From Flammula alnicola (lineage: Eukaryota > Basidiomycota > Agaricomycetes > Agaricales > Strophariaceae): a stretch of DNA of 64,000 bases. Made by a program: the position numbers and the translations under genes. The notes under the pieces were generated by a model that saw only the letters and a list, made by a program, of their open reading frames with translations, was not told the origin of the DNA and ran no database searches. Every line of letters begins with the position of its first letter. The stretch's first letter is position 1. The stretch lies in assembly GCA_015499995.1 (NCBI GenBank), contig JADNRV010000006.1:1-64000 (forward strand), given 5' to 3'. Shown here one piece after another: positions 5,440 through 25,485 of this stretch.

Positions 5440-6075
5440 GGTTGGGAAATGAAAGAAGGAGAGAAAGAAAAAGTTGAACTTTTCGAAGTTAAAAAGGCAG
5501 GGGACACGTGAACGGCCGGTAGCGACCGAACCCCGAAGAATGTGGAAGAAAATAAAAGAAAATGGTGGAAAGCGAGCACGGGAGGGCGATCGCGAAAGCC
5601 TGAGCTTAACAATTCCCTAGAGGGAAGGAGCGGCGCTAGAGATACAGAGCAGGCTAAAAATAGATCTGTGTTCGGGGATGGGCGCTTGTGCCATGCAACT
5701 TACCCAATCGGGAAGTACGCATCAAAAGTCAAAGAACAGGAGACGCCGAGAGCTAGCAGCAAAGCTGCAACTCGCCTAGCAGCACTAGAAAACAAAGCGT
5801 ATAAAACAGAAGGTCAACTAGTAGGAAATAAAGAGCAGACCACTAGTGGTGCTCAAGGGACGAGTCCGGTTGACTGGGGACAGTCAAGATTTCGTGGGGG
5901 GGAGATGATAGGGCCGCAAACTGGCCATGCATGAATTTTGCAATATATCATCTTTTACCTATGGAATATTACCGAGACAAAGAGACTATAACGCACCCAA
6001 GTTAGTAGTCTGAAGCCTAGCTATGCGACTACTAGCTGTCATATAACCTGTGCAGCCTTGTAAGCTAGAATTATA
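5440..6075. other. Gene-free flank left of the KDZ element
   Basis: No credible coding frame is visible. It holds the upstream region of the Cys-cluster gene, the second copy of the G-rich 33-bp motif (5874-5906) and a short AT-rich stretch that runs into the KDZ inverted repeat at about 6076. Confidence 0.5.
5874..5906. repeat. G-rich 33-bp motif, copy 2 (polypurine-tract-like)
   Basis: This is the partner of 2934-2966. It has the same CTGGGGACAGT start and CGTGGGGGGGAGAT end, with a few central mismatches. It lies 435 bp upstream of the Cys-cluster gene start and could be an LTR-element polypurine tract remnant or a shared upstream element. Confidence 0.45.
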
Positions 6076-7340
6076 TATGATTCCTAGGCTGTGGGCTAAC
6101 TACGTTATACATCTATAGCGGGTTTGGGCCGCTTGGGCCGTGGCCTAAGACCATGTGTGAACCTTTTGAAAGGCTGCCGCGGTGCCGGGAGAGGGTGTCT
6201 GCACCTTGCAGGGGGCGGGTACTAGTAAATATGTGTCAACAATGCACAGAAATGGCTGGCGGGCACAAAATATGGTGCTGCTCGTTGTTGGGGGCGCCTT
6301 TAGGCGCGGGAAAAATTCTAATGGCATCTATAAATATATTCTGATATAATGCAGGTATTTGCGCGCCTCTAGGGGGGCGGGAATGGGTGGATTGGGGCCG
6401 GCAGGTTTGGATGACGGTCCCATTTGGGGCGGGGCTGCTGGTAAACACCTATCAACAATGCAGGAAATGATGCTCGGGGTTGTATTTTGGCTTTTGCTCG
6501 TCGTTTGGGATGGTTTTGACCCGGGGAAAAAATGCAGTGGGGTCTAATAATATATTGCTACCCATTGCCACCATTTGCGCGCCTCACGGGGGGCGGGGAT
6601 GGGTGGATTGTCGAGAATGACTTTGGATGACATTCTAAAATTAGACTCCAAGAGCGCTGTTATTTTTAGATGTTAGCGCTTGTGCCTGGTTTTATTATCT
6701 ATAGATTAGATAGCCACAGCTTGATAATTTTAGATGCAGATGCCTTGGCGCTTATTTCTGTTATCTATAGATTAGATACTTTCTGTTAATCCCACGGCGT
6801 TCCATGTTTAAAAATAGATGCGGTTCATTTTGGCCTGCTGCGTCTGCCGCTCGTCGTTGGGGGCGTTTTTAGGCACGGGCAAAAATCCAATAGCATCTAT
6901 AAATATATTCTGACATAATGCAATTGTTTGCGCGCCTCTAGGGGGCCAGGAATGGATGGATGGGCGGGGATGCATCCGGATGATGCGGCGCTGTTGGGTA
7001 ACAAACAAGGATCAACAATATCAGCACAGATTTAGCAGGCGGGCATAAAATCGGCTCGCGCTCATCGTGGTGGGCGCTTTTGATGGCGGAAAAAAATGGC
7101 ATGGACTCCAGGAATATATTCCCACCCATCCCAGGTGCCTCCGCGCCTTGGGGAGGGCGGGGTGGTATGGATTGGCGTGGATGGGTTTGGATGACGTTCC
7201 CAAAATGGATGCGCCCATCAATATCTGTTCCGGTGTTTTATTTTTAGACATAGGCACCGGATGGGCTCTTATCTCTACATAGATTAGATATTTGCACTGC
7301 TCCCGCATTCTCGGGCTAGGTTGTCCGGTGCCTGCCACAG
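6076..7340. repeat. KDZ left terminal inverted repeat
   Basis: This pairs with about 20030-21229 on the opposite strand. It is built from about four diverged modules, each with GCGCGCCT or a variant, then GGGCGGG and ATGGGTGGA-like sequence, at about 6360, 6570, 6930 and 7145. Between them are three copies of a TATCTATAGATTAGATA-like motif near 6695, 6760 and 7270. It is GC-rich with no conserved protein frame. The short open frames on it are matched by mirror-image frames in the right repeat. Confidence 0.85.
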
Positions 7341-7516
7341 AGGGGCGTTATAAATAGATTGCTTTGACTTTGCCACTTCATGGGCATTCCAATCGCAATG
7401 CGTACGAGAACATGTTCAAAATGTCAACAGGCACTCACAGGGTGGAGAAGCAGGCCAAAAGCATTATATTGAGCAGAAGTAAAATAGGTCGATGTCCAAA
7501 AGAAAGCCGGAGAGGA

Positions 7517-10500
7517 TCAATTGACAAGGAGGTGGACATAAGTGGTAAGACAATCCTCAACAGCTACCAGCCACTTGTCCTGCCCCTCCTGCGCCGACTC
7601 AATAGCGCAACCCCAATAGAAAAGACCCGCCATCACACTTACAAGTCCATTCAACCCCGGCTTACTTAGCATCATCCAGTCTCCATCCACCTTCTTGAAT
7701 AAGATCTTCTTGTCTCGTGAAAGTCGCCAATCGGGCTGGAGAGCGGTCCACCACGCCATGAAACTGGCTCCGTATTCATTGGGATCAGAGATTGTCGGGC
7801 GCCATGACGGGGATCGGTACCGCTGAATCCACGCTCCAATAGCAGCCGGCTGGTTTGTTGTTTTGAGCTTCGCAACCTCCTCGAAATCCGATTGTATCTC
7901 GAATGCCGCCCACTTCTCCACGAGCTCCGTCCAGCGTGGATGGCTGCCGACATCCTCATGGCGCAACATCGAGAGGATGTTTGTGAACCACTTCGGCGCA
8001 CCCGGAGGAACCTCGATGCTTGAGGTGGATGGAGCTGGAGACGTGGTGGGCGGAAAAGACGCAGGAGCCGGCTGCGACAAAGTGGCACCGGAGGTACCGG
8101 CAGGCTTGGAGCGTGTTGGTCGAACATGAGCTGGAGGGGCAGTAGAATCGCTCGTGCTCGAAGGAGCGACAGCCGGCTGAGCAGGTTTGCCGCGAGTCCG
8201 TTTGACACGTTTTGGAGGGGGCAATGTTTCCGCCGAATCCGATGCAGCGGCTTCGCCAGTCGCACCTTCTGTTAACGCCTTGCGCCCTCGCTTCTTTCCC
8301 TGTGATGGATGTCCACCATCCATAGCTGGAGCTTCGGGTGCAGAAGACGACGGCTGGGAATCCACAGGATTAGAGGGAGGCGAATGAGGTTGCGAAGAGG
8401 CCGGAGGATTTGGATTTGGAACCGCAGGATTAGACTGAGGAGCGGAAGAAAGCGAAGAGGCCAGAGGAACGGCAGAATCCGAAGCGGCAGACGGAGAATT
8501 CGGAGGAGAGCGATGACCTGATGGTGAAGGAGGAAGTGAATTCGGAGGAGAATGATGCAATGGTGAAGCAGGGGGTGTATTCGAAAGAGGCCCATGAGAT
8601 GGCGAAGGTGCGCGCGACAATGGCTGCGATTGCTGGTCTGAGGACGATGGAGCTTGGGAAGGAGGATGCGGAGGTGCAGGTGTCGGTGTCAGTTGACGGG
8701 CAGGTGGTTGACTAGTGGGGGCATTCTGCTGCCCAGACGACGTATCCATCCCAGGAACTGGAGCTAGTTGCTCGAGCGTGTCATAGCTGACCTCGTCGTT
8801 CTCGAGCGTGTCATAGCTGACCTCGTCGTTCTCGAGCGTGTCATAGCTGACCTCATCGTTCTCGAGATCCAGAGTTACCATGGGCATGTAACCTTTCTCA
8901 CTGTTGAGTGCACGGGCACGACATTCCTCAGGAGCTAGAATTCAAACTCGAATATTAGTCCAATTCCGGTGATAGGAACAGGAATGGAACTTACAATAGC
9001 ACTTCTGAAGGAAGCTGCCGTAGATAGGGACAAAATATTCCTTGTAACGCATCCGTTCCGCACACCCAAAGTTCATCGGGATGTCGCCAGTAGTGGTCCC
9101 AGAATGAATGCTAGGAAAATTCGTGAGTACGACACTAGAGACAGAGAGAACGAGAGAAAAGCATACCTTATGACATTCAACCGCCCATCATGAGCCGGCT
9201 CCGGCCCTCCAGCAATTAGGGTAGCCTTCCACCCTGTAGCCTCGCATATCATGTCCAGAATTGGCTGCGCGAAGCGCACCAAGCCCATAATGCATCTAAA
9301 GGAAACACGGAAATAAGAAAATGAAATCAAGCCGAGAGATCGATAACGTACCTTTGACGATCCTCTGGGCTAGTCGAAGGTGGGCTCTCCATCTCCTTCT
9401 TCCAAGCCTTCTCGGCTTCTCCATGCTCCCTCGTCGCTGTCTGTCTCCATCGCCTTCGCTCATCCTCGGGCAACTTCGCAAATAGCTCCCTCACAATCTT
9501 CTCACGTAGGCTCGCCAAACCCGACCTCTGAATTCCCTCAGCTGCTGCGCGAGTCTTCACCAAGGCTTCGATCATCTCCTTGTGGTTCCTGCGCCAAACA
9601 TTGACCGGCGGTTTGAGGCGTGGTCGATTGCTCTCCTTCCCGGTAAGTTTATAGAGGAGAGCACGGTAGGGGTTGTGAGCCCCCGTCTCCTTTGGATCGA
9701 GGTCGTGGTCTTTCATGTACTGGTAAGCAAACCAACGTTTGATTTGCTGTCAATTGCACTGATCAGCCGGTAGCGACTGTAACAAACAAAGCACAACGTA
9801 CCGCTCGGCGAAACTCCAGTATCTTCTGCCTCCGCTCCAACATAACCAACGCTTCAGCATATTCTTCTGGCGACAACTTCTCTGCGTCTGGCTCTTTATA
9901 GTCTGCGTCGATTGCGTCGTCGTCGACGGCCGCCAAGTGCTCTTCACTTGGCTCTACATCATGCGGTAATTCCACCGGATAGCGTTTGAAGTATCGTCGT
10001 TGAATGAGGGCCACAGCTTCTGCGGCATAGTTGCCAGCGACTGCCTCAATGTAGGCCTCCTTCTGGCTCATCAAGAAAACCTTTCGAGAGCCACGAAACG
10101 CGCCGGGGTTGACCATGGATTGGAACTGGTGAAATTTGGTAAGTTTAATTCCATCTGCTGTTGATATGAAGGTACTTACATGACGTTGTGTAGAGTTAAC
10201 TAGAGGATCGATGATATACTGGCCTCGACGTAGCTATCAGTGAGGGTAAGTCATTCAAAATCGTCACCTGAAAATTGTGAACTCACTTGGAGTACTTTCA
10301 GCACGAAGTATCACAGGTGGGGAGAAGATATTGACGAAGGCCGGAAAATCCAGTGGTGAGTTCTTCGTCCTTTTTTCAATCAATAATCGAGTATAAGATA
10401 AACCAGTTCACGACTCCCTCGTCAATCTCAAGATCGAACCACGCCGATTCGCTGCAAAAAAAACCCTCTGATCTGTGTGTATATATTTCTCCTGAACCAA

Positions 10501-10608
10501 ATCTCGATGTTAGGCTAATGATCCTTCAATAGCGACTTACGGAAGGGTCGATTGCTCTTGGAAGAAGAAAAAGGTCCCCGTCCGACATTTTCGCCTTTTT
10601 TTTTGCAT
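7517..10608 (-). CDS. KDZ cargo: large protein with divergent HMG-like segment
   Basis: The start at 10608 opens MQKKRRKCRTG and splices to ESAWFDLEIDEGVVNW, then DFPAFVNIFSPPVILRA, QYIIDPLVNSTQRH and MVNPGAFRGSRK. The next long exon contains VNVWRRNHKEMIEALV and ELFAKLPEDERRRWRQTA, with a following EHGEAEKAW. That pattern fits the divergent HMG domain reported as KDZ cargo. Later exons carry DIPMNFGCAERMRYKEYF and three perfect 10-residue repeats (LENDEVSYDT). A long Pro/Ser-rich linker with basic patches follows, then a C-terminal domain (SPSWRPTISDPNEYGASF, GDWMMLSKPGLNGLVSV). The protein has roughly 850 residues, with about eight exons. DNA or chromatin binding is inferred. It starts only 36 bp from the divergent gene at 10645. 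Confidence 0.72.
8771..8866 (-). repeat. Three 30-bp tandem repeats inside the HMG-like gene
   Basis: Three 30-bp units beginning CTCGAGCGTGTCATAGCTGA are followed by the first bases of a fourth. Copies 1 and 2 are identical and copy 3 has one substitution. The unit length is a multiple of three, so the protein gains an acidic LENDEVSYDT repeat rather than a frameshift. Confidence 0.9.
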
Positions 10609-10644
10609 AAAAGCTGATCTATTCAACGAGATGAAACCAGCAAC

Positions 10645-12364
10645 ATGCAAATCGTTCAAGACCCCTCTGCTATACAGCCTACCAGCCATTCCCTTGCCGT
10701 TGTTCCTATGCCTGTGGATAATCCCCGCCCCGTTGCTCCACCTGGTGTTGCCCCGCGTACGGATGTCCAGGTCAATGGTATGCGTTGAACACATCTTTAT
10801 TTCGAACTCATGCTAATAAATATCTGATAGGCCCCAACATCGCTATTAATGACCAGATGGACCTCGCGGACGACCCAGGAGATGCTAACGTGTCTTCTAC
10901 CGTCATTCCGAACCCAGCCAATCTTGTCGAGCCGGCAGCCTCTCTGACGGCTACATTTTTTGTAGTCACCGTGGGACAGGTCGTAGGAATATTCAACGAA
11001 GCGGAGTAAGTTGCCCGATTCATCTCAGATTTTTTCATGATGTATTGATTTTTCTTTCTGTTAGTGCGATCGCCTATGACATTGGATCTCAGACGGAATT
11101 CTCTATGCGCCAGTTCCCTAACTGGCACCAGGCCTTAGGTTATTACATTGCGCACCACGGCAACAACACTATCCGTATTGTTGGCCCTGCAGCACGACAG
11201 CCACCCCCCTCGCCTGGAACCGCGCCAAACCCCGTTTATATACCCTCGAACGCGCCCACTCCGGCCAAGGTTCTACCTGGCGCATATGGCAACCCGATTG
11301 CCGTTGGTACCCCCACCCAACCTAGAGTTGCTAGGCGTACAGCTGCCGTCCCGAGGGCTGCCGCATCAAACGCCCAACCTTCTGCCACGTCTAATGCGGC
11401 GTCTAATCCATTTTTTCTCCCTCACCCCCCTAAGCCGATCAAATCTCCCGCTCCTTCTTTGGCAACACCCACCCCTGCAATGCGTGAGGCGGCCCCCTTG
11501 CGAACCAAGGCGAAACCTGCAACCTCTCGCGCCTTGCCTGCTGTTCTTGTGCCAGACTCCGATCCTGAAGAACCTGCCCAGAGCCCCAGGGTGGTTATCG
11601 TTTACACTGACTCCGATTCCTCGGACGATATCCCCGGCCCGCGCTACCCCTCTCCGACGACCAATGTCGCAAATGGTACGCCTGCGACACCTGTTCCGGC
11701 TTACCTGAATTTGCGCGCCTTCCCAGCACCCTCTCCTCTTTCATCCCCTCTTCCCCCCTCTTCTGCTATTTCCGGTTCTTCCCCAACTCCTGCCTCTCCC
11801 ATCAAGCGCAAGAAATCTTTTCTTCCTCTGTTTGAGGATGATGAGGTTGCCATTCCATCTGTCCACGGCCCGCCAACTCCTGGCCCTGCAGAATCCGGCG
11901 TACGCAAGAAAACGAAGAAGGGATCTTCCGCTGCTACCGCGGAACATTTTCTTCCTCTCTTCGCAGATGATGTCGTGGCCGCTCCATCCGCCCAAGGCCC
12001 ACCAGCTCCTGGCCCTGCGGAATCCGGCGTACGCAAGAAAGCGAAGAAGGGACCCTCTGCTGCTACCACTGAGGCGTCGCTTCGGCACTTCAAAGCCATC
12101 GAATCATGCTTCGCGGCTGTCAATGCGGACAACAGCCAGAATCTCGCCACCACTGACCCTTCTTCGCCTGTTTTCTTCAGGGCTCAGTCCAACAGAACCC
12201 CCTTCGCAACTCCGGCCGCCACCACCTTGAATCGAGTCAACACCGCGCTTTCTTCGGCCAGTTCCCTGGCTCAGGCCAATAGCTCAACTGCTGCGATTTC
12301 GTCTCCTCTAGCGACTACGTCGGCCGCCGCTTTGGCTAACAACGGTGGCAATACTCCATTTTAA
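10645..12364 (+). CDS. KDZ cargo: RNase H1-N/viroplasmin-like domain protein
   Basis: The ATG at 10645 starts MQIVQDPSAIQPTSHS. Introns lie at 10778-10830 and 11006-11064. The spliced sequence FFVVTVGQVVGIFNEADAIA, followed by a run ending NWHQALGYYIAHH, resembles the RNase H1 N-terminal hybrid-binding (caulimovirus viroplasmin-like) fold, known for RNA-DNA hybrid binding. No catalytic RNase H domain follows. The remaining roughly 430 residues are Pro/Ala/Ser-rich and probably disordered. They include a duplicated block of about 43 residues with basic ends (FLPLFEDDEVAIPSV... and FLPLFADDVVAAPSA..., each followed by GPAESGVRKK). The basic clusters could be nuclear signals. It shares a 36-bp spacer with the divergent HMG-like gene. 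Its role in transposition is unknown. Confidence 0.7.
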
Positions 12365-12525
12365 TATATACCTCCTGCTATCCTCTATGCCTGACGCTTA
12401 TGATTGACTCCGTGCCTGTTTCCATAATATGCCCCATTTATATATGCTTTGTTCTATGTATGCCCCAACATATGTTTAGTTTTACCAAGATGAATAAACC
12501 ATTTGCCATGTTATCAAGTCTCTAA

Positions 12526-12835
12526 GTGAACAATTTATTCCGAAAGGGATTCAGGAAGCACAATAAATTTTTTGGCACACTGCCTAAACAGCCAGCTAGC
12601 TACCAGGCACTTGCCCAAGATGACGGTAAGGTCAAACTATTTTCCGTCCATGTCCAAATCGGGACGGCCAATCTGGCTAGCTACCAGGCACTTATTAAGT
12701 GAACAATTTATTCCGAAAGGGATTCAAGAAACACAATAAATTTTTGTGGCACACCGCCTAAACAGCCAGCTAGCTACCAGGCACTTGCCCAAGATGACGG
12801 TACGGTCGAACTATTTTCCGTCCATGTCCAAATCG
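12526..12835. repeat. Direct duplication of about 137 bp, 171 bp apart
   Basis: The block starting AAGTGAACAATTTATTCCG at 12526 recurs at 12697 with a few substitutions. Both copies include CAGCCAGCTAGCTACCAGGC and a stretch ending near GTCCATGTCCAAATCG. The right copy contains the last codons of the minus-strand gene ending at 12811. The left copy is therefore a duplicated gene end in non-coding DNA. Confidence 0.85.
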
Positions 12836-13313
12836 AGTGACATAAATGCCTGAAACTCCTCCTCGTCGCGCTGCCTCAGTTTTTCGTGTCGGATCCGTCG
12901 TCTAAGTCAGATGGACAATTTATGTTAGTGTAGTTATTTTCTAATAGCGATTGAAACGTACTTGTATTGCCAGGCTTCATGCCTCAGCTTGCTCCGGTTT
13001 GCTTCTCGGTATCGTGCCTGCGCCTGCCGATGCAGCTCCTTGCGCCGGAAAATCTCCTCGTCAGAGTAACCTGCTTCCTTGCGTCTAGCCGAGGCTTGTA
13101 AGTTGAGAGCGGCACTATATAATGAACTTAACATACCGCTGAGCACGCAGTCGTGCATTCTTGCACTCGCGTTCGAGATTCCTGCAAGCCAACTTAGTAG
13201 CTGGAGAGTGGACTTCGTTGAAGAACTTACAATCTGTAATGCTCGCGTTTTCGTGCACGGACGCGTTCACGGACGTTTTCGATATCATAATCCGTAGATT
13301 TTCCCAGCAACAT
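12811..13313 (-). CDS. KDZ cargo: small arginine-rich helical protein
   Basis: I do not recognise the family. The likely ATG is at 13313 (MLLGKSTDYDIENVRERVRA), although an upstream exon cannot be excluded. Three short introns join the pieces NLERECKNARLRAQ, KEAGYSDEEIFRRKEL, ARYREANRSKLRHEAWQY and RRIRHEKLRQRDEEEFQA. The protein ends LDLDMDGK. It has about 120 residues, is very rich in Arg, Glu and Lys and is probably one long helix or coiled coil. Nucleic-acid binding is plausible from composition but unproven. The gene's last codons lie in a duplicated block. Confidence 0.55.
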
Positions 13314-13900
13314 AGCGTGGCCGAGGACGGTGCAGAATTGGTGATGGAGGGAGAGCTGGTGGAGGTATGGAAACAAGTTTACCTTAATTAGCAACTTTAA
13401 TTAGCAACGTTACATCCATAACAATCGAAAGTGGACAGGCCGAAATCACCACTGTGCTTGAGTCGATCTTCAATTGAACGTGAAAGCATAGGTTATTCAA
13501 AGGTTTGAAATCGGAAATGAGATCTACTGGGTCAGGGCTACAAATCCACTTAAGACAGATTTTCAAGAATGAGCGCGTACAAATTCGAAGTATTCGGTTT
13601 GAAGACTTTCAGTTGAGATGTGTTATTTCTTCGTCGTTGTCGATACCTATATCCCTCTCAATGTGTCCTTTATTCCGAACTCAGCATTTTTGTGGATACT
13701 ATGTGCAATAACATTTCTACATCCATTTGCAAGGATTCTCTCTCAAATTACTTTAGTTATCGACTTCGACATTTGTGGGATGTCCGGAAATCACCACCAG
13801 CATACTATCCTGTTCACATTTCACTTCTCAGGCGTGCAAGTTCACGGACGAAATTGCTACATCATTCGGACTAGACTTATGCTATAGTACATTGAATAAT
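13314..13900. other. Spacer inside the KDZ element
   Basis: No gene is supported. Short open frames show no conserved motif and lack consistent splice patterns. It separates the Arg-rich gene start from the dioxygenase stop codon. Confidence 0.4.
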
Positions 13901-15508
13901 CTAACTCAACTCGTGCCCCTTTTTCTTTAACACCGGCCAGAGAGAAAGTCCGAGTTTCCATCGAGCTTTGTTCTTCACCTCCACCTCCGCCAGTTCCTCC
14001 GGAGTCAAGGATGCGTAGTAATCAGCGGCCCTCTGGTGTTTGTTGTCCACCCATCGAAAGAGAGCGCCAGCGCTGTATTGAGCGAACGAGTAGCGCGTCT
14101 CCCCCTTTGAGATCGCCACGTTTGAATGAGCCACGATTGCGGAAGGGAGTAGGATTGTCGAGCCAGGAGGGAACTCGATGACGAGATGCAAGTCCCATAG
14201 AATCAGGTGTCCACCCTTCGTCGGATCGTAGTTGCCTAGAGCTGTGACCGCACACCAGCCAAAAGGAAGGTTGCCGAAATCGCGGTGTTTGAAGCAGCAC
14301 GTCCGGGGCCCGAAGTTGTATGTAGCCGCCGAGAAGATGCTGCAGTTCCAGACCCGGCGGAGGGTGGGGTTTTTGTCGTGTAGTTCACCTAGGTTGTCGG
14401 CATAGTAGCGGTAGAGATCTGGCATCCAACTCGCCATTACAGCTAATGTGGCAAATGAGTTGGCATTGGTAGGAGAGTGGTGAACTGACTGACCCGAAGC
14501 GAATCCTCCCATCCTTTTGAACGCCTCCATCTCGTTCAGCTCCTGCACCACCAAGCCGTTCGGTCCTTCGTTGGAGAGATTCCGCGGTTCCTTTTGACCA
14601 CCTCCGTGGGAAACGCCAGTTGCAAGGGCCGTAAATGCACCACGTCGGTGAATCCGTTTGTCCTTCGGTATTGAGCATCGGTGGCGCCGTTCTTCAAGCG
14701 CTCGGCTTGCCTGTGCCTGTAGGGCGGGCCAGTTTGAATCGTTTGGGCACCCCGCGAGTAGGGTTACGAGGTTTCCTGACTCATCTTTGATAGGGATGGC
14801 GTCACTGTGTTAGACATATTAGCTCCTAAAAGTTCAAAGGCCACAGATGCCACTCACACTCCATTCCAACTCACGGGCTTGAAGTTGTACTTAGAATTTT
14901 CACCGACAACTTCGTCCAACTGAAAGATCTTGCGAGATCGGGCGCCGTCATCCTTTGCAGTATAGGCCGTGCTGGTCACGTCAGCCTTCTCCATCTCTAC
15001 GTCGCACTCGATGGCCTCGGCGTTGTTGATGTAGCGTTCCTGAACCTTCTTTCGAACGTGGTAGTGGCCATATGTACTTTCTCGGGCGCCGTCCCTTTTC
15101 TTCTGGCGCGCGGCACGACTGCTGGATTTGCGGCGAGCTTTGCGATCTTTAGGCGTGGGTTTAGACTGAGTGGAGGAGGATCCGGCGTTGGGTGGCAAGG
15201 GTTCGAAGTTGATGTCTGGCAACGTGATCGGAGCTAATTGTGGCGATGGCGGAGGTGTGGGTTCAGGGGATGTGAGTGGAGAGAGACTGAAGAGATCGGC
15301 ATCCTCTGCCAGGTGCTCGCGATCAATACTATCTCGCAGCGATGACACGAAGTCGAAATCTGGGTTGGCTGCGGTCACGTGCCAACCGTTCCATGTGTCT
15401 GCGAGTGGCTAGGAACGCGTCGTATCAGACACAGTACATTATGGAGGACAAGAAAGTAAAAGCCCTTACCTGAGTCGTGAAAATGGAGTTGAAGATGCCG
15501 GAGTCCAT
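13901..15508 (-). CDS. KDZ cargo: TET/JBP-type 2OG/Fe(II) DNA dioxygenase
   Basis: This enzyme class oxidises 5-methylcytosine or thymine in DNA using Fe(II) and 2-oxoglutarate. Three exons (15470-15508, 14858-15408, 13901-14804) have GT-AG introns of 61 and 53 bp. The N-terminal part is Ser/Pro-rich with a basic patch (KDRKARRKSSSRAARQKKR). The catalytic double-stranded beta-helix has the family signatures FGPRTCCFKHRDFGNLPFGW and GGHLILWDLHLVIEFPPGS. The metal ligands are His and Asp of HRD and the distal His in IVAHSNV. The 2OG-binding Arg is in GETRYSF. No key residue is missing, so the protein is predicted to be active. It is transcribed away from the transposase and has about 500 residues. 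It matches the fungal TET/JBP genes linked to KDZ transposons. Confidence 0.92.
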
Positions 15509-16030
15509 AATGGGCCTAAAAAATTGATTCATCGTTGGAAAAAATATGACACGGTCGAGAGTCAGACAAAAGGTAACAAAAGATAATGTAGTGCTATGCA
15601 GTAAGAGCGCGTTCTGAGAGCACGGTGCATGGCAGTGTATTCCCGGGCTCGAGAATTCCTAACCATCGTGCTCTCTTGACGATTATTGCATGGCACATGG
15701 ATAAGATGGGGGTGGGTCACAAGTAAACACGTACATGTATGGCCTGTCAAGTCAGACTTGAGAAAAAATTGAGGACCCGCAGGGAGATGGATGGCGCTGG
15801 CAATTGATGAGAGATGAATATTGAAATATTGAATATCGATGTATGTAGTTGAAGGAAGGTGTCCGTTGAAGGTTCTGAATCTCTGATGTTCAAAAATCTT
15901 GATCATGTTCCGACGGAACGATATCACGGGGCCACCGTTTACAATTCTCATGCACATTTTGTAGCCGGTCCGCCGGTGTTGCTGTTGGACACACCGGGCT
16001 AGCCTTCCGTTTCTTCCATCTTGCTCGTTC
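15509..16030. promoter_or_regulatory. Divergent spacer between dioxygenase and transposase
   Basis: This is 522 bp between two start codons that face away from each other, with no supported coding sequence inside. It probably holds the promoters of both genes. I see no core element I would name with confidence. Confidence 0.5.
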
Positions 16031-19000
16031 ATGGACTCAAGGCCTGCAAAACGCCCACGTACCGGTCAAACAGCATACCACGATGCAGTTCTCTTGGCCG
16101 AGGACTTCAGCACTGTCCATGCCCGTGAAGGGAGACTCAGACGGATTGGCAACGACTTTCTTACTGCCCCAATGGAACGGTTGCCGCAGAGTACTATGGA
16201 TTCTTGGCAAAAGCTCTCTGGATGGACCCCCCCCGATAGCACGGAATTCGCTCTGGATCCGAGCGGAGATCTATATGACGAGGCCTTGTCTGCCGATGTC
16301 ATGGAAGATCCACCTTCAACCACCGACCCGGCTAGCGTGAAGAAGAAGAAGAAGACTACGGTTTCAGTATGTATTTTATAGAATTTGTTTTCTCTATTTA
16401 TTGTGCTGACTTTAGTTTGCTCAGCGGCGGCCGCATGTCGTCTGGAAGAATCTTCATCGGCAAACATACTTGGACGAAATTCTCCGCTGGTCAGGACGTG
16501 CTGACTTTCGCGCTGCAAAGGAATGCCCGGACTGTGTGGCTCGCTCTGTGGAGAAGCCTGGGTTGCCGGAGTATCGTTGCGACGAATGCGTTCTTCCAGA
16601 CCTGACGTGCAGCTCGTGCTGTGTGCGTAGACACCGTTTACATCCTTCCATCGTATCAGGGTGGGTTCTCTTTCTTCCTTGCTTTGTATTGTGCAGTCTC
16701 TGATTAATTCTAATGGTTTAGAAGTGGTCGGGATCTCATTTTATCAAAGCCACGCTCAAGTCTTTGGGGCTCAAGATCCAACTCAACCACGCCAGTATGT
16801 TTTGTGAGAATCCGATCGCTAGCCATGCAAGTTTACTGGTCCTCCACACAAACGGAATGCACGATGTCGACATTCGCTACTGCGGCTGTGCGTGAGCAAT
16901 TCCACAACACCTTCAACTCATGCGCAGACGGCTGTATCCTGCTTCTCAGATCACAGTAAAAACGTGCGCCACATTCGAACTCCTTGAGCACCTTCACATC
17001 CTCGCCCTGACTACGAAAGCAACGACCTACGACTTCTATCGAGCATTGGAGAAATCGACGAATAACACCGGCATGAATGCCCCGAAGTCGCGCTACCGTG
17101 CACTGTTTCGAATCATCCTGCAGTGGCGCCATCTACAGCTGCTGAAGTGGGCAGGGCACGGGAATGATGCATCAGGAGTGGAGGGTACGAAACCTGGTGA
17201 TCTCGCAATCAGGTGTCCATCTTGTCCGCATCCTGGCATCAATTTGTCAGAGGGGTGGCAGGATGCTCCTGAAGGTGTCAAGTAAGTCGAATTCTTTGCA
17301 GATTTGGATGCCAGAACATATGCTAACAACGTTGAAGGTTCCTTTACATGGTCTTCATATGCATGGATGCGAACTTTCGCCTGAAGAACCAGCTTGTCTC
17401 GAGCTACTCACAGGATCCGGGGTTGGGAATCGGCTGGGCGTACATGGTGCCACGTCAAGGCTATGAGTCGTATGTTTTGGGACGAGCAAATGATGCAGAT
17501 GTGAGTACATATCCTACCATCGTTTTATCTTTTATTCTCTAAACGGCTGCCCTAGATAAGCACCTGCGTTGGCCTTCAGGCGCTGGCAAAAGCGAACACA
17601 AGGTTCTCTTTCGGGCTGAGATATACGGGCGTCAACATAGCGGTCTGCGGCCATTCGGAGATGATATTCCCATGTGGTGTTGGAAATCTACAGAAGGGCG
17701 AAAGGTACGTGATTTTTATGTGTCGTGAACGTGCGAGGTCTCAATGTATTGATAGATATGCCAACATGGACTACATATTCGGCTACGTCCTTCGGTTCGT
17801 CTACACTACCCTCATCCTGATCAGCTACGACATTTGCTGCCAATGGTTCATCAACCTCTTCAAGCGCATGGACGAACACTGGCCTGATGAGATCAAAATG
17901 TGCCCCGGTGTCACGTTGATCCCTGCGATTCCGAAGCTGCACGAACCAATGCATCGAACAGCGGACCATGAGAAGTATTCACTCAACTATATCAAGGGCT
18001 GCGGGCATTCCGACTGCGAGTGCCCAGAACGCGTCTGGGGCCCTCACAACGCACTCGGTAACTCGACGAAAACCCAAGGGCCCGGTTCTCGTCACGACGT
18101 TTACGACGATCATTTTGGGTTTTGGAACTGGCTGAAATACATCGGCCTGGGCCTTACGCTGCTTCGGAGGTACAAGGCTGCCGTGGCGCAGCGGAATCTA
18201 CAACAGGAAGGGCATCGCGGGCTCACGGAGTCATTGGATCCAGAGCCCGTCAAGAACTGGGAGAAGATGTGCGTCAATTGGGAGCAAGCCGCCTTTCCCA
18301 AGCAGAATCAGCAGAATCCCTATTACTTGAAGGATGCATGTAAGTTTGATCCATCCAACTTGATCCATCGATTTATTGAGTTTGTATCTGGTGTTTGATT
18401 GCAGATCTTTCCGAGACGCAAGTGAAAAAGGAGCTTGCGGAAGAAGAGGAGCGTCGCCTTGCAGCTGGTGGTGTATCTCTGCATGCAACATCAGCTTGGT
18501 ATTTCATTCAAATGGGTTTGGATCTGGAGGATACACAGTACGTTATGGTATTGTTTTCATCGCACTCTCTGGTTGCTGACTACGCTTGATTCAGACGCCG
18601 TCTCCAGCGCCTGTCGAAGGCTATCGCGTCGAAATTGACCGGAGCTATAGGGCAGGAACGAAATCTAACGGAGGAGCAGAGCAATCTCCGTGTACGCTTT
18701 CGAGCTTGGGAGAAACTGGTGCCCATCTACCTACCTGGTCTCCTTCAATACCAGACGGATCTCGCCCGTAATGCCTCGAAATCTGACAACGTTCCAAGGT
18801 CAGAAAAGCCTGAAGACGCCGACGTATGGCTACCCTCTCGAATACCAGCTGTGGCTCGAGATCGGATTTGTCAACCTGGTCTTGCCCGGATAGAGGAAAG
18901 GCTGTGCGATGCGCAGTGCAGGGATTCGCTCCAGAAGGTCCGCCGTGTCCTCAAAGTCAAGAGTCGGATGATCCACTTCAAGAACAAGAACATTCGAGGC

Positions 19001-19837
19001 CAACGAGATGGTACACGATCAAGAGCTGTGATCGACAGGATACACATGAAAGCCCGGAATGCGGCAGATAGGTACCGAGCAGCTCGTCAAGCAAAGCTGG
19101 CTCTAGCTGGGCCTGGGAAATGGGAGGAAACACTGCGCATGCTAGAAGACAAGGACATTCGAGCGTATCAAGATCCGAATCGTCTACGTACTAGGGTCGG
19201 CCGTCGAGGGGTTTTGGAGGATGACCAGCTGGAAAGAGCAAGCACGGCCACGGCACCAAACGAGGAGCAGGAGTTCGAGCTATTCAACGAGGCTAGAAGA
19301 CGACGCGATGGTACTGGCGAAACACGCCGAACGCTCTCTTGGATATGGTTGACCACGCCTTCGTCTGAAGATGATGACGAAAAGGACGACATTCTGCGAG
19401 TCGAGTGGGCGAAAAGCAGGGCGAGGGCAATGCGGGCTTCTGAGGAGGTTATGCTCCTCAAGGAGGAGATGAAACGCGTCCTTGCCTTCCTCGAGTGGAA
19501 GTCGGAATGGTGGAAAGAACGAGAGCAATCGAGGGAGGACTTGACCAAGGAGTTGGCTGAGGGCGTTCGAGGGTTTGCGTTGACCCAATCAAACCTGCAA
19601 CGAGACCTCGCTGCTCACTTCCGCGAGCTATGGAAGGCACCTCTCGCTGACATCGAGAAGGCTGATGATACGGCTTCAATCTCCGAGGCAGACGATGACG
19701 ATGACAACAACAACAACGGCGACGACAACGAGGACGAGGACGATGGAGAAGGAGCGAACGCCAATGGCAATCCGGATGATGAGCCCTTGTCGGACGATGA
19801 GCCCTTGTCGGACGATGACCTTCTCGATGATCTTTGA
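16031..19837 (+). CDS. KDZ-family transposase
   Basis: It catalyses DNA transposition with an RNase H-fold DDE core. The start at 16031 gives MDSRPAKRPRTGQTAYHD. The N-terminal zinc cluster, typical of KDZ proteins, is visible as RPHVVWKNLHRQTYLDEIL, then CPDC, YRCDEC and LTCSSCCVRRH. Later metal-binding pairs include YCGC and CPSCP. Proposed catalytic residues are Asp in FICMDANFRLKN, Asp in SYDICCQW and Glu in CECPERVWGPHN. The C-terminal third is charged and helical and ends in an acidic tail (DDDDDNNNNGDDNEDEDDG...) with a short duplicated ending. At least seven introns, all GT-AG by eye, keep the frame. The protein is about 1,080 residues long. I see no stop or frameshift, so it is probably functional. 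It lies near the right inverted repeat and reads toward it. Confidence 0.93.
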
Positions 19838-20029
19838 GACTTGGTTTATGTTGAACATGTATACCTCTGGATTACTTTATCTAGTCAGGGTGAGGCCCCA
19901 ATACAGTCGTGAGTACATACATTGCTGCTAAGTCTACATGTATCTACATTTTTGAATGAATACCATACTGGATTGACGGGCAGCACACTGTTATGAACCA
20001 ACCAGCATGGGAGCAATATTAAATATCTA

Positions 20030-21229
20030 ATCTACAGATAACAGAAACCAGGAACTGAATAACCTAGCCCGAATATCTAATCTATGTAGAGATAAGAGCC
20101 CATCCGGTGCCTGTTGCTAAAAATAAAACACCGGATTGATGGGCGCATCCATTTCGGGAACGTCATCCAAACCCATCCACGCCAATCCATACCACCCCGC
20201 CCTCCCCAAGGCGCGGAGGCACCTGGGATGGGTGGGAATATATTCCTGGAGTCCATGCCATTTTTTTCCGCCATCAAAAGCGCCCGCCACGATGAGCGCG
20301 AGCCGATTTTATGCCCGCCTGCTAAATCTGTGCTGATATTGTTGATCCTTGTTTGTTACCCAACAGCGCCGCGTCATCCGGATGCATCCCCGCCCATCCA
20401 TCTATTCCTGGCCCCCTAGAGGCGCGCAAACAATTGCATTATGTCAGAATATATTTATAGATGCGATTGGATTTTTTCCCGTGCCCCAAAACAAAATGAA
20501 CCGTGTCTATTTTTAAACATACAGCGGCATGGGATTAACAGAAAGTATCTAATCTATAGATAAGGGCAACAGGCGCCGGAGTTCTGGCTATCTAATCTAT
20601 AGATAACGAACCAGGCACAAGCGCTGGGGTCTAAAAATAGCACACCAAAGCCCTTTCCATCTAATTTTAGAATGTCATCCAAAGTCATTCTCGACAATCC
20701 ACCCATCCCCGCCCCCCATGAGGCGCGCAAAGGGCGGCAATGGGTAGTAATATATTATTAGACCCCATTGGAATTTTTCCCCTGGCCAAAACCGTCCCAA
20801 ACGACGAGCAAAAGCCAAAATACAACCCCGAGCATCATTTCCTGCATTGTTGATAGGTGTTTACCAGCAGCCCCGCCCCAAATGGGACCGTCATCCAAAC
20901 CTGCCGGCCCCAATCCACCCATTCCCGCCCCCCTAGAGGCGCGCAAATACCTGCATTATATCAGAATATATTTATAGATGCCATTAGAATTTTTCCCGCG
21001 CCTAAAGGCGCCCCCAACAACGAGCAGCACCATATTTTGTGCCCGCCAGCCATTTCTGTGCATTGTTGACACATATTTACTAGTACCCGCCCCCTGCAAG
21101 GTGCAGACACCCTCTCCCGGCACCGCGGCAGCCTTTCAAAAGGTTCACACATGGTCTTAGGCCACGGCCCAAGCGGCCCAAACCCGCTATAGATGTATAA
21201 CGTAGTTAGCCCACAGCCTAGGAATCATA
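20030..21229. repeat. KDZ right terminal inverted repeat
   Basis: This is the inverted partner of 6076-7340, about 1.2 kb. It has the same modular structure and four TATCTAATCTATAGATA-like motifs near 20025, 20072, 20548 and 20590. It differs from the left repeat by scattered substitutions and indels, including a block around 20440-20660. The outer end lies at 21229. Confidence 0.85.
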
Positions 21230-22590
21230 CATGAGACCAGCGACTACAGGTGACCTGTGACAATGGTAATCAGACGCGGTTCAGAGCTAGCTGAGTCCGT
21301 ATGATAAGCCGGGAGACAGTTAAAAGTTAGAAAACAGTGAAACATAGAACACATAAGTCATAAACGACTAGCGAGGCATAAACGCACCATGGGGAATAAA
21401 TTAAAAGACTTCTGGATGCTTTGGAAATAGTGCGCGGCGAATTCAGTACAATCAATGTATTGCTGAATAGCTAGCTACAAAAATACTACAACTAGGAGCG
21501 CGAGACACAGCTAGTGAGAGCTAGACGCGAATGCGTCGACTACTAGCGAGCGTATCTTATGACTTACTGAGAAACGCACGGGACGCGGACGCGTTAGTTA
21601 GACGCACGCTCTACCCTCTACCCGGGGGGCTACCAAAAGTGGTAATAAGATGAGAAAGGAAAGAAGGAACCGGCATCAATGATGGCCGCAGATCCGGAAT
21701 AAAGCGGCACCGCTAGCCGAGACGCACGCATGATGCGCATGGTACGCGGAAGTCAGGAGCGTCCTAGCGCGCTAAAATGGGATGAATTTCCAAATCCTTG
21801 ACCGCTAGCTGGTCACCTGGAATACTCAACCCTATACCCATTGCCTGCAGGCATTATTTACACGAGATAAGAATGTTTTACTCTATTTTATTCGCATACC
21901 AGAACCACACATAGCTGTAGTATAAAAGATGTACTTCTGTAGCTAATTACCTTAAGCAATCTCTTCCCAGTTTTATTTCGAGCTAAGACGCAGTGTCTAG
22001 TAAGAAAGAGGACGAATAAAGGATCAGTTTGACTTCAATAGAGTTCGTTTGAAAGCCAGAAGAAGGCTTAGTGTTAAAGAGAAGTTCTTGAGGACAAGGT
22101 CCAAGAATTTAGAAGCCAGAAGAGTGCTTAGAGGCCGGAAGAGTGCCTAGAGAAAGTCAGAAACAGAGTCCAAGTGGGCTAGCAGATCGTTCAGAAGGTA
22201 GCGCACAGTGCGGCCTTAGTTTCAGACGAGTTCCGAGCCTCCAGAGCAGCTAGTGCTTCGAAAGTCGAGCTAGTAGCGTCTTAGAGAGCTTTTCTAAAAA
22301 CATAAAACCTTAAAAATCAATAAAACCGTTCATCCTTGTGATAAAACGAAGCTTGAAACGAAGATAAAACGTGTATTTGAATAATCCCTCATACCCACTT
22401 TAAACGAACCGCGAGGCGCTGTCTACAAGTCAGCTAGCTAAATAAAACAAACACTGTGGAGTACAGCACACTACATATTTCTGAAGCTAGTAGAGCGTCG
22501 CTCGACCTAGTTAGGATCTCGCTCCGCAGTTGTGTGTGTTGTTTAGGTCGCTGAGCGCGTAGCGGGTCTCTCAACGGCGGAAACTTAGTG
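21230..22590. other. Non-coding LTR/leader-like segment
   Basis: There is no credible gene in 1.36 kb. It is rich in AGCTAG/CTAGCT (for example near 21285, 21470, 21512, 21802 and 22433) like 1-6 kb, and unlike the KDZ or Ty3 coding DNA. It abuts the KDZ right end on one side and the broken Ty3 integrase on the other. It may be an LTR or leader of the same element family as the 1-6 kb region, split by the KDZ insertion. That is inference. Confidence 0.4.
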
Positions 22591-22789
22591 TTTTCGAATG
22601 AAGTGGGAATGGAGATTGGTGAATACCCATTTGTAGTTCAAACGGGTTCTCTGTCTGTCCGCATGTCGCCGATCATTGTGCGTGAATTCCAAAGTGCTGA
22701 TGGAGTCGAGCCAAGTGTCTGGATTTGATGAGCAGTATATGGAGATATATGCTTCGATTTCTTGGTTAAGACGTTCCGTAGCACCATCC

Positions 22790-23853
22790 CAGTACTTTGC
22801 TGTGCCCCACCTATTCCGGTTGGAATGACTGGAATCCGGTGGAATGGGACTGGAATCCAGTGGAATAGACTGGATTCCAGTGGAATGAAACTGGAATGGA
22901 CTGGAATAGGACCAAAATCCACTGGAATGGACGGGAATACATTGTATTTTGTTTAATTTAGATGTCACATGTCACAGGCCTTTGAATTTGTCAAAAAAGT
23001 CACACCACTCCTGTATCCCAGGCTCTTTGTCCAAAAACCACCCCGCAAAATCCAAATCTAAATATAGAAATTTAGAGTGAAATCATCTAAAATAGGTTGC
23101 GAAAACCACAGGGTCCACCCTAATCTGGCAGGTGTCTGAAACCAAAAATTCAGGCACAGGGGTCACATGTCACATATGTGTGACATGTGCAAATTGACTC
23201 CTTTATATGCCTTATTTGTCTATTTGAGATACATATGTTATGTGACTGACATGTGAGTGATTCAGGATCAATAAGGTACCATCAGATTTAGCATTTTGAG
23301 GAGATTCTAAATATATCTATATTCTGTGTCCCAGACAGGCAATATTACCATATTTGGGCTGTTTTGAGGACCGTGGGAATTTTATGCCTAAAAAGGTAAT
23401 TATAGCACCTGCTGTGAAAGCTGTGTACCTTTAGAAATCATGTGATCTGCTGCTCTCGTTGATGAGAAAACTGCAAAAACTCGACCAAACCCGAGTCTTT
23501 TCAAAATCACCTAATCCAAATATTAAATTTTCTAATTGGGAATATGTCTTGGCACACTATCCAATTTTATTTCAATACCACAGACAGGTACTGATGTCTA
23601 TTTCTATATATAGACATCAGAAATCACCAAATCATAATGCATTTCTATTCCATTCCAGTGGAATATCTGGTTGTTCCATTCCAGCCATTCCACTCCTGTT
23701 GCATTCCAGTCAACATTCCAGTGGAATCTCGGAATTTGCCCCTTTTTCAAGAAAATTCAGAAATTTGGCAGGAGATTCCACCGGAATGGCCCTATATTCC
23801 ACCGGATTCCACCGGATTCCGGTAGGAATAGGGGGGGCACAGCAAAGACCTCC
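22790..23853. mobile_element. Non-autonomous hAT-like element (about 1.06 kb)
   Basis: It is inserted in the Ty3 integrase. Inverted ends share CTTTGCTGTGCCCC, with left start CAGTACTTTGCTGTGCC. Flanking direct repeats are ACCATCCC (22783-22790) and ACCATCCG (23854-23861), an 8-bp duplication with one mismatch, the size typical of hAT. Removing one flank and the element restores integrase continuity. There is no transposase gene. Both ends are packed with TGGAAT/ATTCCA repeats. Confidence 0.8.
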
Positions 23854-25485
23854 ACCATCCGACTGCGGGTGATAGGTGGTGGTCAATTTGGATTTGATGC
23901 CAAGGAGCTTCAGAAGCTCTCGGAAGGCTTTTGCCGCAAATTGAGGGCCACGGTCAGACCTGAGGCTGTCAGGTAGTCCGAATCTTCTGTATAGATTGTC
24001 CAAGAGTAGGCGTCCGGTTTCTTCTTGTGTGACCGAAGTGGAGCAAGGAATGGTAATTACCCCCCCTGTAAGACCATGGTCGACCACGACCAGTACAGCA
24101 TCTTTCCCGTCGATCTCGGGCAATCCAGTGATGAAATCCATCGTTGGATCGGCAAAGGGTCATTTCGAGTGAGCGGTTTCCTGTGCAATTAATGCCGGGT
24201 GTGACGGATTTCTGTTGATCTTGAATTGTTGACAGATTCCGCATCCTTTCACGTAGGATTTCACGAAGGTTCGCATGCCGGGCCACCAGTAATGTTCCCG
24301 AATAGCATTATACGTTTCAAGTTCGCCCGGGTGTCCTGCTGTCAGAGGTTCGTGATATTTTTCCACGATTTCACGTCGCAGCGATTGACTATTAGGGATA
24401 TAGTTTTTCCCTTTATAGAACAACAATCGTTTTCCATCGTGTTCGGCAGTGGTCCAGTCCTGTAGTCCTTTCTGTAGGCTCCGTGGTCCATCCTCCAGCA
24501 GTATTCTGAGCGCTTCTGCTGCTTCAGTGTCGAGGTTCGGAGAATTGGCAATCTTTTCTTGCAATTCAAGGTCTATGAGGTTTACGAAGAGCCCTTCGGG
24601 CAGGAGTGTCATGTCGTCGTTATCTGTATCGTCATCTGGGATATGGTCTGGCCGTCGTGATAGTGCGTCGGATTGGACCATTTTACTTCCTGCTTGGTGG
24701 ACCAGTTTGACGTCATATTCTGACAGGAATAGAGACCAGCGCGCTTGTCGTCTGTTCAGTTTCTGGGCAGAACGGAAGTAGGTCAGGTTCTTGTGGTCCG
24801 ATAGGATAGTAGTCGTGAATGGTGATCCTTGGATATAGTGTCTCCACTCTTGCATGGCTCGGATGATCGCCAGGAGTTCTCTGTCGTAGATTTCATAGTT
24901 CCGTTCGGCTGGTGAAAAGGTCTTCGAGATGAATGCACAAGGGTGTCTGGAGCCGTTTGTGTCCAACTGCGATAGCACGGCACCAGATGCATACTTCGAA
25001 GCGTCGCATTCTATCTGGAATGGTTTGGTCGTGTCTGGCATTAACAGTACGGGTTCCTCAGTGAATCGTTTCTTCAAGGTATCAAAGGCCTTCTGTGCCG
25101 CCTCCGTCCATTCAAAGGGTTGGTCCTTCTTCAATAGTTCGTTCATTGAACGAGCTATTTCAGAATAGGCTCTGATGAATTTTCGGTAGAAGTTTCCGAA
25201 TCCGAGGAATGATCGAACTTGTTTGAGCGTTTTCGGTATTGGCCAGTCTGTGATTCCCTTGAGTTTGGCTGAGTCCATTCGGATCCGTCCTTCCTCAATG
25301 ATCATGCCCAGGTATTCCATCGTCGGGAGCTCGAAGAAGCATTTCTCAGGTTTCAGGAATAAGTCGTTTTCTCGTAGGCGTTGCAGGACCCTTCTGGTGT
25401 ATGTGCGCAGTCGTTCCTTGTCTGATGAAAAGAGCAAGATGTCATCCATATAGATGATTATCCAATATTCAATGTGCATTTCGGA

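Follow-up and report, generated by a model that had tools for sequence, protein, structure and literature searches.

Why a DNA transposon would carry a TET/JBP-fold dioxygenase and an HMG-like gene, and whether such an element moves with its cargo as one unit, are questions raised by a locus of the agaric Flammula alnicola (genome of 74.4 Mb, 861 contigs). The window, that is, the whole analysed stretch of 64,000 nucleotides (C556:1-64000), holds an element of 15,200 bp at 6053 to 21252, measured from the start of its A tip to the end of its B tip, both tips being fixed by other copies. It belongs to the KDZ group of DNA transposons. We read it, with a probability of about 0.6, as a 15.2-kb cut-and-paste, Kyakuja-like KDZ transposon whose TET/JBP and HMG-like proteins would relieve host methylation silencing in trans. 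This reading is built on the observed ends, target-site duplications, gene content, gene order of a sister element, purifying selection, a TET fold predicted for the dioxygenase and a footprint of CpG transitions; DNA binding, 5-methylcytosine (5mC) oxidation and relief of silencing are the parts that we infer. The terminal features of the element are:

6046..6052, left target-site duplication, ACCTGTG, an exact 7-bp match to 21253-21259
6053..6075, plus strand, A tip, CAGCCTTGTAAGC..., distinct from the tip at the other end; 12 further ends among 30 loci carry a tip of this kind
6076..7334, plus strand, left inverted terminal arm, which contains sub-repeats of 120 nt as well as copies of TATCTAATCTATAGATA
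20049..21229, minus strand, right inverted terminal arm, delimited by arm comparison
21230..21252, minus strand, B tip, CACCTGTAGTCGC... in the inward direction; 16 further ends among the 30 loci carry a tip of this kind, with minor variation
21253..21259, right target-site duplication, ACCTGTG, an exact match to the left copy

The arms, of approximately 1.2 kb each, are inverted with respect to each other in blocks of 582 nt (97% identity), 358 nt (98%), and 64 nt (95%), and 1133 of the 1205 aligned positions are identical when the tips are counted in. At the outer edges of the 30 loci fetched by arm search, the A tip (CAGCCTTGTAAGCTAGAATTATA) occurred 13 times and the B tip (CACCTGTAGTCGCTGG and on, with small variants) 17 times. 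An exact 7-bp duplication, never one of 8 bp, was found in 9 of the 11 elements with both tips comparable (the window element, C60, C223, C49, C119, C468, C334, C268, and C490); no target duplication was found in C610 or C123, the other two elements compared at both tips. Since such a match is expected by chance in about 1 in 16,000 cases per element, the ends are not explained by chance. Thus, the inverted termini and the target-site duplication of KDZ DNA transposons are both present in the element. An 8-bp repeat, GCGACTAC (6025, 21240), was ruled out as the target duplication once the tips had been fixed from other copies. An earlier annotation made from the letters alone (the sequence-only reading) had placed the inverted ends at 6076 and 21229; the arms it saw are real, and its limits were corrected to 6053 and 21252 because the other copies define 23-nt tips and the 7-bp duplication lies outside them.

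A 601-nt query from the left arm matched at least 57 places in the genome, a minimum because 40 of the 174 first-look candidates were scored. Among the relatives, C468, C334, C268, and C490 occupy four different sites, have near-identical ends over the stretches compared, and are each flanked by an exact 7-bp duplication; therefore, the family appears to have been recently mobile, presumably by means of a transposase acting in trans. The elements C60 (4.7 kb) and C223 (6.3 kb) have ends as in the window, and only repeat-like reading frames in their interiors; no recognisable genes were found inside these two, which are among the copies read inside. Their interiors contain trinucleotide-like repeat arrays that give long frames in several phases.

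The genome search proposed in the sequence-only reading, for copies sharing both ends and cargo order, was successful: the gene set, order and orientation of an element in C123 (tips at approximately 7946 and 23923) match those of the window element. The genes of the latter are:

7517..10116, minus strand, HMG-like gene of 5 exons (10116-9802, 9746-9352, 9295-9167, 9110-8995, 8934-7517), 790 aa, frame open
10645..12364, plus strand, Ser/Pro-rich cargo gene of 3 exons (10645-10777, 10831-11005, 11065-12364), 535 aa, frame open
12811..13288 (approximate), minus strand, small basic gene of several short exons, with the motifs ARYREANR and DEEEF, conserved with C123:15847-16212
13901..15508, minus strand, TET/JBP-fold dioxygenase gene of 3 exons (15508-15470, 15408-14858, 14804-13901), 497 aa
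16031..19837, plus strand, KDZ transposase gene, disrupted, 8 exons in a splice-based model

The C123 element bears A and B tips like those of the window. Its arms are about 72% identical to the window's and its genes 60-75% identical in DNA, so arms and genes diverge in step. Its TET gene comprises 498 codons without a stop, and its HMG-like gene has no stop in the aligned stretch. Synonymous divergence between the two elements was alike across four genes, at 1.11 to 1.30, values that are near saturation and hence approximate. The ratio of nonsynonymous to synonymous divergence (dN/dS) was 0.12 for KDZ (823 codons in five blocks, stop codons excluded), 0.21 for TET, 0.24 for the HMG-like gene, and 0.30 for the Ser/Pro-rich gene (445 codons). 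By this sequence measure, cargo and transposase alike have been under purifying selection, which indicates past function.

These data bear on the possibility that the terminal repeats form a separate, non-autonomous family that came to enclose the gene block once, at this locus, by capture or insertion. The gene-less interiors of C60 and C223 are compatible with such an event, as is the 27-kb element C119:6560-33446, which has A and B tips as in the window and an exact 7-bp duplication (TGCCAAG) and seems to nest an unrelated KDZ unit within these ends. However, the same genes lie between A and B tips in C123, with arms and genes in step, which largely refutes a single capture, and transposase pieces adjoin arms of the window family in C346 and C858 (in the latter, Ser/Pro and KDZ pieces adjoin an arm). 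We therefore consider capture very improbable. The arms, the target duplications, and a sister element with equal gene order indicate that the unit moves as one, in agreement with the earlier description of a KDZ transposon that carries TET/JBP and HMG-like genes. As for C119 itself, it contains, besides a distant KDZ transposase, a non-long-terminal-repeat (non-LTR) reverse-transcriptase-like frame, seen by eye, and a dioxygenase like CcTET, the TET enzyme of Coprinopsis cinerea, which belongs to the other TET branch. A giant autonomous element was considered; comparison with C548 makes nested insertions likelier, and C119 is probably such a nest, with approximate limits.

Whether the window copy can still move by itself depends on its transposase, for which the following sites are relevant:

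16641..16660, plus strand, end of exon 2, with pre-intron sequence 1 base shorter than in C123 and C108; probable frameshift
16893-16895, plus strand, in-frame TGA inside the CxC2 domain; C123 and C108 have neither a stop nor an intron there
17360-17383 (CMDANFRL), 17820-17843 (ISYDICCQ), and 18015-18038 (CECPERVW), plus strand, candidate catalytic D, D, and E, assigned by eye

Pfam recognised KDZ (PF18758, 1.1e-50) and CxC2 (PF18803, 2.6e-36) with the stop entered as X. Thus, a KDZ transposase with DDE candidates and zinc motifs, as previously described, is present; the descriptions "unbroken" and "all frames intact" do not hold, given the TGA and, as judged against the two relatives, the probable deletion of 1 nt where exon 2 ends. 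The deletion may reflect a sequencing error in a short T run. An alternative 5' splice site preserving the frame of exon 2 was considered, and the comparison with C123 and C108 favours the frameshift. A 36-nt intron spanning the TGA, seen by eye, would be unusually short and would excise residues conserved in both relatives. With the TGA and an exon 2 one base short, the window transposase is broken, so "self-contained" is unsupported for this copy. A complete transposase frame, the mark of an autonomous transposon, was not found in the window copy, and no whole transposase was found among the related copies examined (window, C123, C108 in part, C346, and C858 in part). C123 has one exon stop, at a codon other than the window's; C108 and C858, read in part, both have stops; that of C346 is truncated, its fragment carrying one stop; and the match in C421 has nine stops. 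Because its own transposase is abnormal, the window copy could move at present only by a transposase supplied from elsewhere.

The two window lesions and the stops in C123, the C346 fragment and C421 could also mean that the element is a relic, its open cargo frames merely unbroken so far, in which case present function need not be assumed. This is possible but doubtful: the dN/dS values of 0.12-0.30 speak for past function, and the near-identical ends of C468, C334, C268, and C490, with exact 7-bp duplications at four sites, suggest that the family moved recently.

The dioxygenase is central to the proposed silencing relief. Its frame in the window has no stops, and its active-site motifs are:

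14270..14290, minus strand, KHRDFGN, the metal-binding HxD, with Asn at H+5 and Cys at H+11 (14252-14254)
14084..14131, minus strand, distal His (AHSN) and 2-oxoglutarate-binding Arg (ETRYSF)

In an alignment of 57 of the 120 listed sequences, the H, D, N, and C of the motif and the distal His are invariant, and the Arg is nearly so. A model predicted for P0001, a deposited protein of 97% identity, has a TET-type fold with HxD, distal His, and Arg, and this predicted fold is closest to 5mC enzymes. Motifs, predicted fold and stop-free frame thus bear out the TET/JBP gene of the sequence-only reading. Pfam Tet_JBP (PF12851) gave no match to the window dioxygenase at E up to 1; one listed relative, P0044, does carry it. 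Within the genome, 42 loci of the window's TET clade and 72 KDZ loci were counted; 16 of the former have one of the latter no more than 10 kb away, where random placement would give 0.9. Both locus counts are lower bounds, from one query each. In C105, C612, C848, C605, C856, and C852, a TET-clade match and a KDZ match are separated by a constant 3301-3303 bp, and this group looks like a recently active TET-KDZ family.

The sequence of the enzyme leaves room for another activity, on a different substrate or step (6-methyladenine, a hypermodified base, or strand transfer), rather than on silencing CpG methylation. Against this, the Asn at H+5 occupies what we take to be the position of the human TET2 Asn that contacts 5mC, the predicted fold is closest to that of 5mC enzymes, and CpG transitions (below) indicate methylated C in the family. 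In its favour, the enzyme is far from CcTET (PDB 7vpn, 7w5p, 8jkk), with about 15% identity and no sequence-level match: searched alone, the sequence matched nothing in PDB at E up to 1, and the 33 weak PDB matches of the 57-sequence profile at E up to 10 included no TET chain. The CcTET residues Gly331 and Asp337 are replaced by Asn and Cys in the window enzyme, and Kojima 2025 (PMC12730594) states that CcTET cannot do without Asp337 for its activity on 5mC. On balance, we regard another substrate or step as unlikely. The AG-type mark (CcTET-close sequence with Asp337 kept) is absent from the window enzyme, as is the PE-type mark (HxE for HxD): the window has HRD, and the Asp is invariant in the 57 aligned sequences.

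The methylation history of the family was assessed from CpG substitutions. The transposase region of the window is 97.5% identical to the truncated copy in C346, and 43 of the 66 substitutions are CpG transitions; transitions affect 12.5% of 345 CpG positions compared with 0.8% of 2250 others. Between the window's two arms, 11 of 133 CpG positions show a CpG transition; the other differences over 1180 positions are 25 transitions and 23 transversions. This pattern points to past CpG methylation in the family. At 99.75% identity to C346 over 3.6 kb, C49 provides no independent check of CpG decay. Protection in cis of the TET-bearing copy was considered, as 38 CpG were lost in C346 versus 5 in the window; the contrast became weaker once C123 was used to polarise the changes, and such protection is not claimed. 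Among the 43 CpG changes, 12 were not cleanly polarised: C123 had a third base at 5 of them and shared the CpG-less state of C346 at the other 7.

Several observations weigh against relief of silencing by a TET enzyme of the element. The ratio of CpG to other changes after polarising was 26:13 on the C346 branch and 4:6 on the window branch (p 0.16). Observed/expected CpG was 0.97 for the interior, 0.86-0.87 for the arms, and 0.93 for the window at 22-64 kb, so there is no bulk depletion. The window arms keep 22/25 and 20/25 CpG sites, inside the range of 28 other arms (15/25 to 24/24), none of which is near a TET-clade match. In addition, C108 has the HMG-like, Ser/Pro, and KDZ genes and no TET match in the 10 kb examined; the TET gene is therefore not obligatory. 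The silencing relief suggested earlier remains plausible, with a CpG footprint that supports methylation of the family, and this footprint does not demonstrate that the TET-bearing copy is spared; comparing arms and copies gave no clear sign of its protection. No result speaks for the biased integration also proposed earlier, and no test aimed at it was made.

The HMG-like gene and two further genes named earlier were present. The label "HMG" derives from the motif reading of the sequence-only reading; for the HMG-like segment, Pfam gave nothing at E up to 10, and the 3 weak PDB matches included no HMG-box chain. An open frame at 7517-8941 was considered as a separate gene; in the splice model it forms the fifth and final exon of the HMG-like gene. 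The Ser/Pro-rich protein has a small conserved N-terminal domain, equals the deposited P0121 in length, and is identical to it across the 121 residues compared; the database matches listed are all from Flammula, and relatives of the gene occur in C123, C108, C856 (together with an HMG-like match), and C858. The name RNase H1 N-terminal domain was dropped for this gene because Pfam did not support it and the model was poor (predicted local distance difference test, pLDDT, 34). Immediately downstream of the gene, at 12523-12835, lies a tandem duplication of approximately 174 bp with copies 95-96% identical. Outside the element, at 22585-24159 on the minus strand, Ty3/gypsy-like integrase pieces, seen by eye, are interrupted by an HSTGI-type repeat-rich stretch, so this flank resembles a transposon graveyard.

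An association of KDZ elements with TET/JBP and HMG genes was reportedly noted by Iyer et al. in 2014; compared with that association, the present locus provides complete ends, gene models, and a sister element. The 8-bp target duplication that marks Zisupton is absent, the window element having 7 bp. From the accessible text on KDZ1 of Cryptococcus neoformans (PMC12810828), that element is likewise a large KDZ element (~11 kb) with terminal inverted repeats (TIRs, 241 bp), and was shown to be mobile; it differs in having 8-bp duplications and CxC1, compared with 7 bp and CxC2 in the window. The class itself is already known: the accessible text of Kojima 2025 (PMC12730594) describes TET-carrying Kyakuja transposons with 7-bp target duplications and 5'-CA...TG-3' termini. 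The window element shares with these a KDZ transposase, a TET/JBP gene, 7-bp duplications, CA...TG termini, and an Agaricomycete host, and in target duplication and termini it is closest to published Kyakuja. However, two Laccaria Kyakuja families are described there without TIRs, whereas the window element has ~1.2-kb arms with unlike tips, and for this reason we call it Kyakuja-like only. The published Kyakuja TETs are CcTET-like (AG type, Asp337 kept), unlike that of the window, and "HMG" has no occurrence in the main text of that paper, whereas the window element has an HMG-like gene. Relative to the literature consulted, the new features are the long, unlike-tipped arms, the conservation of the gene set, a transposase that is broken, and a TET branch without the tested AG and PE marks. 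No priority is claimed for this branch.

Under the proposed explanation, the KDZ transposase would bind repeated motifs of the long arms, cut at the CA...TG tips, and insert with a 7-bp stagger. Supplied in trans together with the HMG-like, putatively DNA-binding protein, the TET/JBP enzyme would oxidise 5mC at CpGs of the family, so that family promoters and ends would stay usable despite host methylation. The window copy, if expressed, could still supply TET and HMG-like protein. More tentatively, and with odds against so specific a version, the enzymes with HxD, Asn at H+5, and Cys at H+11, below Pfam detection, might form a separate TET/JBP class integral to a conserved module of long-armed Kyakuja-like Agaricomycete elements and act in trans on gene-less relatives, a copy with a dead transposase persisting as a supplier of demethylation and DNA bending.

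The results also suggest that surveys based on Pfam Tet_JBP miss much of this TET branch. The locus offers exact ends, duplications, a sister element, relatives without recognised genes that may serve as responders, and a dioxygenase whose active site differs from that of the solved fungal TET (CcTET), so that the effect of such enzymes on DNA becomes directly testable. Transposons with their own demethylase-like enzyme represent a testable case of a mobile element set against host silencing.

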